Origin: a bacterium | GTDB taxonomy: Bacteria; Eisenbacteria; RBG-16-71-46; CAIMUX01 | Direction of reading: 5' to 3' | Assembly: GCA_030431975.1 (NCBI GenBank) | Contig: JAUIHP010000012.1 | Location: forward strand, 1 to 64,000 | Length of the DNA stretch: 64,000 bases | Shown here: piece by piece, positions 8,965-18,775 of the stretch | Layout of the letters: every line of letters begins with the position of its first letter | Numbering within the stretch: the first letter of the stretch is position 1 | Position numbers and translations under genes: made by a program | The notes under the pieces: generated by a model | The model's input: the letters and a program-made list of their open reading frames with translations, nothing else | Told to the model about the DNA's origin: nothing | The model's database searches: none

Positions 8965-9020
8965 GCCGACCTATTCATGAAGGTCTACTGCGGTGGCGAC
9001 CTTCGCGAATGCTCGGGTTA
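8965..9020. repeat. Dispersed palindromic element, copy 1
   Basis: Imperfect inverted repeat: arm ...ATTCATGAAGGTC (to 8985), loop TACTGCGGTGGC (8986-8997), arm GACCTTCGCGAAT... (from 8998). The second copy at 35957-36018, read on the opposite strand, shares 11 of 12 loop bases and most of both arms. The element fills the gap between two convergent genes, and its right end carries the TAA stop of the leftward lipoprotein gene (9018-9020). It may act as a bidirectional terminator. Confidence 0.75.
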
Positions 9021-12000
9021 GGGAGACGCCTCGGTGATCGTGAAGCTCTCGGCCGCCTCGTCAAAGGTGAAGATGTAGTCCCCATCCCCCGGGAGTACGA
9101 CGTTGATCCAGTTGACGAACCTCCAGTCGCAGAACGGAGCCGTGACAACGCCACCCGCTTCCAACGTCAACGTCTTTGAATCGCAGCTGCCGCGCTGGGT
9201 ATCGGTCTTGAGGACGTCATCCAGCCGGAAGTTGAAACTCAGCGTCTGGTTTCCGAGTTCACTCGCCTGAATCGTCAACGTGTCCGCCCAGACACAGTTC
9301 CCCAGATGCGACATGTGGGGTCCCTGACCTTCGGGCGGATAGTTGTTGAAGTTCCCGACGATCTCGACCGCCGAGGAAGGCGTGCACTCGATCAACTTCT
9401 GCAACGTGATGAGACCCGCGGTCGCCGTTTCCTCGGCGTTCACGGTTACATCCTCGAATCGGGAAGTCTCGTACCCCGGCGCGGAGGCTTCGATGTCGTA
9501 AACTCCCGCCGGAAGGTCTTCGATGAGATAGCTTCCGTCCGACCCCGCGACGGACTGGCCTTCCTGTCGTGTCGTACCGTCGACGAAGGCGCGCACCGTC
9601 GTTACCGGCGGCGTCCCCGGAGAGTCGCTCCACGCCACCATCCCGGCGACGGACCCCGGCAGTTGCAACGACACCGGTGTGATGGTCAGGGTCTGTTCTT
9701 CTTCGTTGAAGCGGAACTCGTAGTCGCCCGGATTGGGGAACCAAACCCGAAGGGCCGGACCGTCGTTGGCCGAACATACAGGCCCGCTGGTGAAGAGTGT
9801 GTCGGCTTCACTGGTACAGCTTCCGTAGTCCGGCGGAGTGCCCCACGCTGCGCCGGTCCGCAGCTTCATGAAGTGCGTGCCGCCGCCGGTTCCGATACTC
9901 ACCGTCACCGTGTCCACGAATAGACAGCTCTCGAGCTGCGTCATCGGATCGGCATCGACGTTCCAGTTGTTGAAGTCGCCCAAGACCTGAACGATGTCGC
10001 TCACCGGCTCGCAAACTTCCAAGCGGACCAGGCTGAGAGATCCGACTGCGGTCTCCTCTCCCTCGACGACGACCACATCTTCTACGACCAGGCTCTCGTA
10101 CCCGAAAGCTCGGATCTCCAGATCGTAGGTACCGCCGAAGACGTTCTCGATGACGAAGTCGCCCTCCGAGTTGCTGAGAGTCGAGTGAACGACACTCCCG
10201 GATTCGTCCTTCAGTTCGATCGTCGCCGCCGGATTGGGATCGGGGTCGTCCGAAAAGGAAACGCTACCCGAAACGGTCCCCAGCTCGACCGAACTGAGCA
10301 GCCGGATCGCAAAGGTCCGGTTCTCTTCGTTGAGCGTGAACTCGTACTCACCGGTCTCCGGGAAGTAGACACGCATCGCCGGACCGTCGTTGGCCGGACA
10401 AACGGCTTCACCGCCGAAGAGAGTGTCAGCCTCGCTCGTACAGCTGCCGAAGTCCGACGGCGTACCCCACGAGTCGCCGGTTCGGAACTTCATGAAGCGC
10501 GTCGCGCCGCCCGTGGCCACGGCGACCTGCACCGTGTCGATGAACATACAGTCACCGAGCCGTGTCATCGGGTCGGCCGTGGTGTCCCAGTTGTTGAACT
10601 CACCCACCACCTGGACGATCTCCGAGATCGGCTCGCAGGTCTTGGACAGTTCCAGGCTTACGTTCCCGATGTCCGTGATCTCTTCCGCGGTCACGCTTTG
10701 CCCGGTGACAAGTTGATCCACGAAACCGAAAGCCTCCACGGAAACGTCGTAGGTTCCGACCGGAATACTTTCAATGAGGAAAGCGCCGGAGGCATCCGTG
10801 GTTCCCGTGGCCACGCCCTCACCTGTGCCGGCTCGCAGGACGCGAACGGTCGCCGTCGGAAGCGGATCCGGGTCACCCGCAAAGCTCACCGTACCGGAGA
10901 GCCCCCCAAGCTCGACCTTTCCGAGCAGGGTGATCTCGTAAGTGAGCGCGGCCTCGTTGACCTGGAAGCGATAGTCGCCGGTCGTCGGGAAGACGACCGG
11001 GAACGCCGGTGCGTCTCCGCCGCCCAGACAGACGTCGCCGCTCAACGTGAGGGTGTCGGTTTCAGCGCCACAGTGAGCGAAGTCGTCGGAAAGCCCCCAA
11101 TCCCCGCCCGTCCGGAACTTGAAGAAGAAACGGGATCCACCCTCCGCCGTCACCACCGTCAGCGTGTCTTCCCAAAGGCAGGCTTCGACCTCGGTCATCT
11201 GCCCCAGCGGAGTCCACTCATTGAAGTCCCCGAGGACCTCGACGATCTCGTATTCGGACTCACAACCGGCAACCAATGTGATCGGGTCGACGGTGACGAA
11301 GTCGCCGTTGGTGAACGCGATGTCTTCGATCTGTCCCGAAAGATATCCCGGCGCCGAGACTTCCAGGTCGTAGACACCGTCGGCCAAGCCTGTCAGGACA
11401 TAGGTTCCGGTCTCATCCGTCATCGCGGTACCCGCTACCGTGCCGGCTTCGGAGAGCGCAACCACCGTGGCCACTGGAAGCGGATCCGGCGAGCCTTCGA
11501 AGAGAACCGTTCCCCGGACCTCCCCGGCTTGGGACGAAACGTCGTTGGTTCCGAGATCGACGGCTTCCGAGCCGACGACGACGGAACTGATGTGGAAGTC
11601 CTGATAGCCCTGGGCGACGATGATGACCTCATAGGTCCCTTCGCCGAGTCCGTCGATTTCGAAGGAGCCGTCCTGCGAGTTGACCGTTGCCAGCGGCGCT
11701 TCGGCCTCGGTGAGAATGAAGTACTGCGCCGGGTTCGAAGATTCATTGAGAAAGGCGTAGTAGGAGGCGGTCGCCGGTACCTCTGCCTGAAGATCAGGTC
11801 CGTTGGCAATGCGAGGAGCGTCACCGCTCAGTCCGCTCGCCGTACCGGTTCCGACGAAGTCGGCTGGGACGTTCCAGGCCGCGTCGGTGACAAACTTCCA
11901 CGTGATCGGACCGGAGCTCAGCTCGATCTGGTCCGTCCAAACGCAACCGCCGAGGTAGCGCATCCCCGGTGTTGTCGACCACAGAGACTCGTCCCAGTCA

Positions 12001-17552: not shown

Positions 17553-18775
17553 CGAACCACCCCAAACGCTGCGGTCGACTGGCTTTGACCCGGAAGTTCA
17601 CCGCTGATCACGCTGAGGACGTAGATCCCCCCCTTGACCATGCGCCCGTTAGCGTCTCTGCCGTCCCATTGATCCAAATCGGGGTTGTTGGGATCGGACG
17701 CCAAACGTCGGTCCTCGGTGTACAGGGTTCGGACGAGGTTCCCGGATCCATCGTAGACATGCGCCGTCAGCGCAATGGTGCGAACGTCATCATCGGGCCC
17801 CAATTCCGGAGAAAGCCGGGTACGGAAACTCATGGGCCTGGACTCTTCCGGAGAAGCGATCTTGCGATCGAACTCAATGGAAGCCACTTCAAAACGGATT
17901 CCCTGGAAGGGCGGACGAAGTTTGAAATCGACTCGGTCACGAGGCTCGATATCGAAGTCAACGATTCCGTCGTCGTTCTCATCCAGGGGAACGATCACGT
18001 AGTTGTCGATGGTGACGAGAACCGCGCTGTCGGTTTGGTGACCCGTAAGATTGTCAGGCGCGGAGTCCGGCCCTCCGGTCCCGTCCGGTCCCGCCGTGAT
18101 GACCGCCGCCAAGCGGAGATGGTCCATCTCCTCCGGGATTTCCCAGGTGTCGACACCAGAGTTGACGTCGGTGATTCGGGAAGACTGCCCGCCGAAGATC
18201 ATGTTCCACGGAATCGCCGCTTCCATCGACCGGCCGGGCGTGTTCTGAAGAAACGAGGCTACACCGATGAAAGTGCCCGCCTGCGCCTGGACGATCTGAT
18301 CGGGCTGGCTCGGATCGACGGTCCAGAACTGCGGAGCCGAGTTTCCGTCCCAGGTGGCCAAGAACATGTCGGGAGAAAAGTCCTCGGAAAACGTGAAGTT
18401 TCGTCGCCAGGCGTTGAGGTCGGTCATCCTGGGGAGTCCCTCGTCGTCCGGGTCTGCGCCGGTCGGATCGATGAGGAGGATCATGTTGTTGTCCCAGATG
18501 AAACCGTCACACGCGACGTAGAGGCTCTCCGCGTCCCAGGTCATCTTGATCTGGTTCAGATCATTGAACGGTCCCCAAACGGAATCGTTGGTGTCCTCTT
18601 CGGGAACACCCTCGTTCAGACCGAAGAGCCCTTCTCCTTCCGTGAATTCGGAGGAGATACCGTCAATGATGATACGTCCGGTTAGATCCGGCGCTGTTGC
18701 GGCGAAGCTCACGTCAGACCGAGGCACGAAAAGAGCCACGGTCACCAGGGCCGGAAGCAGATGTCTCAGCGCCAA
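17549..18775 (-). CDS. Secreted CBM9/DOMON-like surface protein with C-terminal FlgD-like domain, first gene of the operon
   Basis: 408 aa when started at the TTG at 18775, which has GAGGAGG 11 bases upstream and opens directly into a signal peptide (A-L-R-H-L-L-P-A-L-V-T-V-A-L-F-V ... F-A). The frame stays open far upstream, but only as antisense to the GH13 gene. The mature N-terminus has I-I-I-D-G, W-D-A-E-S-L-Y-V-A-C-D-G and L-L-I-D-P-T-G, typical of CBM9/DOMON-like sandwiches. The C-terminus is a FlgD-like Ig repeat (V-Y-D-G-S-G-N-L-V-R-T-L, W-D-G-R-D-A-N-G, G-G-I-Y-V-L). It heads the minus-strand operon and is divergent from the four-CBM48 amylase. Likely a glycan-binding or structural surface component. 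Confidence 0.7.
   Translation of the reverse strand: MALRHLLPALVTVALFVPRSDVSFAATAPDLTGRIIIDGISSEFTEGEGLFGLNEGVPEEDTNDSVWGPFNDLNQIKMTWDAESLYVACDGFIWDNNMILLIDPTGADPDDEGLPRMTDLNAWRRNFTFSEDFSPDMFLATWDGNSAPQFWTVDPSQPDQIVQAQAGTFIGVASFLQNTPGRSMEAAIPWNMIFGGQSSRITDVNSGVDTWEIPEEMDHLRLAAVITAGPDGTGGPDSAPDNLTGHQTDSAVLVTIDNYVIVPLDENDDGIVDFDIEPRDRVDFKLRPPFQGIRFEVASIEFDRKIASPEESRPMSFRTRLSPELGPDDDVRTIALTAHVYDGSGNLVRTLYTEDRRLASDPNNPDLDQWDGRDANGRMVKGGIYVLSVISGELPGQSQSTAAFGVVR

Follow-up and report, generated by a model that had tools for sequence, protein, structure and literature searches.

Six genes on the minus strand of a 64,000-nucleotide stretch of bacterial DNA (Eisenbacteria; assembly GCA_030431975.1, contig JAUIHP010000012.1, positions 1 to 64,000; hereafter the window) form, as judged from sequence comparison, a real, conserved and Sus-independent alpha-glucan operon of Candidatus Eisenbacteria. 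The genes, here called g1 to g6 (Table 1), encode a secreted protein, a PorV-like barrel, two large barrels, the second of which carries a CBM48 module, and two lipoproteins. A sequence-only reading of the window had proposed a complete binding-and-uptake machine for alpha-glucans; the operon and its link to alpha-glucan held, while the completeness of the machine and its channel activity are predictions. We consider it rather probable that the operon is an outer-membrane alpha-glucan acquisition module which does the job of the Sus system with different parts.

Glycan uptake by Gram-negative bacteria has mostly been described via SusCD, TonB receptors or small porins, and our search of the open-access literature yielded no description of this operon. 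If our reading is right, the operon represents a different outer-membrane solution for glycans, conserved across an uncultured group and tracking maltose import and amylases. It would also assign a concrete cargo to a PorV-like protein from outside Bacteroidota, and it would allow sequence to predict the glycan feeding of Candidatus Eisenbacteria.

Conservation of the operon and its link to alpha-glucan

All six open reading frames were present, and every join that had been proposed for them was exact: the ATGA overlap of g1 and g2 (17549-17552), the seven-base overlap of g2 and g3 (16569-16575), the one-base overlap of g3 and g4 (14986) and the three-base gap between g4 and g5 (12785-12787). 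The probable start of g1 is a TTG at 18775, preceded by GAGGAGG, and an in-frame start upstream of it is possible. A promoter and terminator scan gave no sigma-70-like site and no convincing internal terminator.

Our searches with g4 in 59 related genomes, 47 of which belong to the class, showed homologues in 18 of the 47 when the fragmentary copies in G041 and G014 are counted as present. The order g1-g2-g3-g4-g5 recurred in Candidatus Eisenbacteria and related metagenome-assembled genomes, often again with overlaps of four bases or one base; by the gene calls, g2 was missing or uncalled in one copy (L052), and four others (L057, L061, L062 and L063) are cut by contig ends. The most variable part of the cassette lies after g5, where a lipoprotein of 267-1478 amino acids is found or, in some genomes, a second CBM48 protein, a GH57 (glycoside hydrolase family 57) enzyme and MalEFG instead; the GH57 enzyme and MalEFG stand downstream of g5 in the same direction in several genomes. 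The identities of g2, g3 and g4 co-varied across genomes (Mantel r 0.92-0.97), while the values for MalF were lower (0.55-0.60). A gene order found again and again in independent genomes, often down to the overlaps, shows the six-gene block to be no product of chance and one operon unit, and the joint divergence of g2 to g4 supports this unity. Scanning GTDB r220 (one genome per species) with g3 gave 23 loci, the majority labelled Candidatus Eisenbacteria and the minority two Gemmatimonadetes/Gemmatimonadota, one Ca. Effluviviaceae and three unnamed bacteria. Among the loci read, the most distant ones (L084, L086 and partly L087-L089) have the cassette linked to another MalFGE importer, of about 29% identity.

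A close MalF homologue was found in 17 of 18 operon-positive versus 0 of 29 operon-negative class genomes (Fisher p 7e-12), and GH13 genes in 18 of 18 versus 4 of 29, respectively (p 2e-9). These figures are to be read with caution: the genomes are related and hence not independent, and as MalF and some of the GH13 genes adjoin the cassette, a single regional loss would eliminate both. An effect of a single clade is disfavoured because presence and absence are patchy within three families. With GH13 genes in every operon-positive genome, the barrels were not seen to persist in genomes devoid of amylase genes. This co-occurrence, the retained CBM48 ligand residues (see below) and the fact that in some genomes GH57 and MalEFG belong to one run of genes with the operon support the role proposed for the operon, and alpha-glucan is well supported as its predicted substrate class.

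SusD (PF07980) was absent from all 59 genomes, including that of the window, while the Bacteroides control was positive, and LamB (PF02264) was not found in any of the 59. The SusC model (TIGR04056) gave 15 fragments in the window's genome, the best of 49.8 bits versus a cut-off of 368 and none in the operon. The earlier statement that SusC and SusD homologues are lacking thus stood, no SusCD pair was found elsewhere in the genome, and all three proteins were rejected as hidden uptake proteins. The locus nevertheless resembles the SusCD-type polysaccharide utilisation loci of Bacteroidota in its clustered outer-membrane barrels, its secreted GH13 enzymes and pullulanase and its alpha-glucan target, and, as in those loci, glycan-binding lipoproteins and glycoside hydrolases for one glycan are co-localised. 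It differs from them in having no SusD, only weak fragments to the SusC model and barrels without a match (g3 and the barrel part of g4), and in that import continues via a MalEFGK ATP-binding cassette (ABC) transporter. An ABC maltodextrin importer of this type is shared with the maltose system of E. coli (LamB and MalEFGK), whereas the outer-membrane step, made there by LamB, is here apparently made by other barrels and CBM48 proteins.

The CBM48 modules and the two large barrels

The CBM48/AMPK1_CBM assignments were confirmed for g4 (4.7e-15; 56 bits) and g5 (5.8e-8; 33.3 bits), both above the cut-off of 26.8 bits (PF16561/PF02922), as were the repeated modules of g6. The g4 module matched AMPK beta (1.8e-11), where W63, K92 and W99 align to the same residues. 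These three and N114, which we take from the AMPK domain to be the CBM48 ligand positions, are invariant or at least 90% kept among g4 homologues, and the W/K/W pattern is also found in g5 and in four of the five g6 modules. The conserved ligand residues suggest that the modules of g4 to g6 bind glucan. In contrast to the AMPK beta glycogen-binding domain, CBM48 here forms part of an outer-membrane barrel protein (g4) or of a lipoprotein (g5), and no description of a CBM48-barrel fusion was found in the open-access literature searched. The fusion predicted for g4 was confirmed while the surface capture proposed for it was not: a domain that precedes an outer-membrane barrel at the N-terminus is normally periplasmic, so the g4 module probably faces the periplasm, as an acceptor or plug rather than a surface binder.

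Lipoboxes were found in many g5 and g6 homologues. A lipoprotein export signal of the Bacteroidota type is improbable, no consistent acidic motif being seen after the lipobox. Most copies of the g5 homologues (L047-L081) have C-x-x-L-x-F-I/V-K-K/R right behind the lipid cysteine.

Outer-membrane barrels end in an aromatic residue, and g3 and g4 have one at the C-terminus in every homologue. Neither g3 nor the barrel part of g4 had a Pfam match. The AlphaFold models had predicted local distance difference test values of 77.4 (g3) and 74.5 (g4) and predicted template modelling scores of 0.65-0.68, and the strand counts in Table 1 were taken from the DSSP elements of these models. The best structure matches were to the FimD/PapC ushers for g3 and to TonB receptors for g4, but with a template modelling (TM) score of 0.2-0.5 and a root-mean-square deviation >10 A, so that barrel size alone was retained from them; the PDB sequence relatives of g3 were chance hits only. 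When lumen and lipid sides were assigned by strand hydrophobicity rather than by model coordinates, lumen-side residues were more conserved than lipid-side residues in g3 (p 4e-7) and no more conserved in g4 (p 0.31). We infer that g3 is a better candidate for a channel than g2.

g1, g2 and the type IX secretion genes

The description of g1 as DOMON-like was not confirmed: none of 13 members of the family had a DOMON or CBM9 hit, and FlgD_ig was the sole Pfam match. Glucodextran_C was rejected for g1, hhalign being negative and the Pfam hit in long distant homologues covering another stretch. At the C-terminus of the family, FlgD_ig (10 of 13), the PorU C-terminus model of the type IX secretion system (10 of 13) and TIGR04183 (3 of 13) all matched weakly, and in the long distant homologues the terminal domain matches both FlgD_ig and CHU_C. 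Two long neighbouring proteins with a C-terminal domain (CTD) and weak GH57 matches (L070, 377-4390; L072, 903-4910) have a g1-type module before the CTD, in keeping with the role proposed for the operon.

All 14 homologues of g2 matched NF033709 PorV_fam at E 0.01 or better (best 1.1e-18), and the g2 profile matched PorV in the PDB (6h3i) at 7.3e-5. By these profile matches g2 is a distant PorV/PorQ/PorP relative, and in this sense the label PorV-like was upheld. In most copies it lies directly downstream of g1, often with a four-base overlap.

The genome of the window has SprA (490 bits, cut-off 200), PorU (540 and 456 bits, cut-off 420), eight PorV-family proteins above cut-off and, spread over its contigs, about 50 matches of C-termini to the end of PorU. 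SprA was matched in 17 of the 18 operon-positive genomes, in some as fragments only. The type IX core genes lie on contigs C49, C15 and C5 of G000, and SprA was above cut-off in 43 of the 59 genomes, many of them without the operon.

The type IX system has been called exclusive to Bacteroidota (PMC12618676). Type B CTD genes of F. johnsoniae are commonly followed at once by a PorP/SprF-like gene, whose product is their shuttle (PMC12618676), and surface binding of proteins with a type B CTD by PorP-like proteins is also described (PMC9143113). The succession of a CTD-like g1 and a PorV/PorP-like g2, in a genome that also encodes SprA and PorU, resembles these pairs and those of type A CTD and PorV. 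However, g1 and g2 are found outside Bacteroidota, have a predicted glucan-associated cargo, lie within a glycan operon that encodes two more barrels, and score below the curated cut-offs as CTD and shuttle. Because the end of g1 is CTD-like, g2 lies directly downstream and type IX genes are present in the genome, g2 would by analogy more likely be a carrier or anchor of g1 than an uptake pore; a type IX shuttle or anchor is a more plausible reading of this barrel than the uptake part first proposed.

Proposed mechanism, alternatives and neighbouring genes

The division of labour that we propose, including channel activity and the secretion pairing of g1 and g2, is predicted from sequence. CTD-bearing GH13 enzymes would be exported by the type IX system and cut starch or glycogen outside the cell. 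Given the gene pair, its domains and the type IX genes, g1 would take the same export route, and g2 would collect it and hold it at the surface. Maltodextrins would cross the outer membrane via g3, perhaps with g4, while the probably periplasmic CBM48 of g4 and the lipoproteins g5 and g6 would hold glucan at the membrane. CBM48-rich GH13 enzymes and pullulanase would then trim the glucan, and MalEFGK would import it. That a type IX-secreted, glucan-binding g1 held by its PorV-like shuttle, a g3 channel of a new barrel family with roughly 24 strands and a periplasmic g4 acceptor feeding an ABC importer make up a third outer-membrane route for large glycans, besides LamB-type porins and TonB-driven SusCD, is a tentative proposal which we regard as possible rather than probable.

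Several findings weigh against the acquisition module. The barrel models are moderate and their PDB matches have TM scores of 0.2-0.5, which leaves pore size and strand number uncertain; the CTD match of g1 itself is weak (FlgD_ig 0.0011, below cut-off), and g2 scores 42 bits (E 8.4e-11) versus the PorV_fam cut-off of 90. A GH53 (galactanase family) enzyme of the locus (31738-33201) has a C-terminal module that resembles the CBM48-like modules of g6, so the g6-type modules may not be specific to alpha-glucan. The genome also has 12 TonB-dependent receptors (PF00593), any of which could carry maltodextrin, as the TonB-dependent route of MalA in Caulobacter does. The products of g1 to g6 could then form an amylosome-like surface scaffold that holds starch and enzymes without transport, a reading that the lack of preferential lumen-side conservation in g4 and the only predicted conduction by g3 and g4 would allow. 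We consider it unlikely, although worth weighing: none of the 12 receptors is on the contig of the window, LamB and SusD are absent, the lumen side of g3 is conserved, and the cassette is strictly paired with a MalEFG importer, which points to import.

An accessory operon of type IX secretion, in which g2 to g4 would mainly secrete or display CTD proteins (g1 and the amylases) and the link to sugar would come from the amylase cargo only, would account for the PorV/PorP-like g2, the CTD-like end of g1 and the type IX genes of the genome. However, SprA is also present in most operon-negative class genomes, so that the cassette tracks MalF and GH13 rather than type IX secretion, and the CBM48 modules of g4 and g5 keep their ligand residues; we find this explanation quite improbable. 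Sequence gives no direction of transport, and an outgoing glucan, such as a self-made capsule or a glycogen-like exopolysaccharide, could be held just as well by two large barrels with CBM48 lipoproteins. Export or display of this kind is very hard to reconcile with the linked secreted GH13, pullulanase and GH57 enzymes and the binding-protein-dependent MalEFG-type importer, and neither in the operon nor among its neighbours in the window to 36 kb was a gene for a glycosyltransferase or a capsule noticed.

Table 1. Positions in the window of the operon genes and their neighbours
Feature	Position	Strand	Description
g1	17549..18775	-	secreted; conserved N-terminal module of about 300 amino acids, no Pfam family; C-terminal FlgD_ig/CTD-like domain
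g2	16569..17552	-	PorV/PorQ/PorP-like outer-membrane barrel, directly downstream of g1
g3	14986..16575	-	outer-membrane beta-barrel of about 24 predicted strands, no Pfam family; charged residues conserved on the lumen side
g4	12788..14986	-	signal peptide, CBM48 (46-114), large outer-membrane beta-barrel, about 26 predicted strands, C-terminal Phe
g5	12359..12784	-	small lipoprotein, one CBM48
g6	9018..12305 (alternative start 12347)	-	lipoprotein; five CBM48-like modules alternating with CarboxypepD_reg modules
MalG, MalF, MalE, MalK importer	793..5308	-	separate genes 793-1626, 1634-2527, 2712-4034, 4238-5308
Secreted protein	5470..7485	+	X25-like match, C-terminal FlgD_ig/Por_Secre_tail CTD
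GH13 enzyme	7566..8963	+	no evident signal peptide
Neopullulanase-like GH13	18908..22384	+	divergent; four CBM48 modules
Secreted pullulanase	23692..27213	+	TIGR02103, 1074 bits
GH13 enzyme	28987..31521	-	CBM48 and C-terminal FlgD_ig CTD
GH13 amylase	33260..35953	-	weak C-terminal FlgD_ig CTD

The MalEFGK importer and the amylases said to flank the operon are real, although one of the neighbours is the GH53 enzyme. The locus also contains an esterase with a CBM20-like match (22453-23679) and a secreted CBM20 protein (27431-28711). A homologue of the secreted protein at 5470..7485 accompanies most copies of the cassette.
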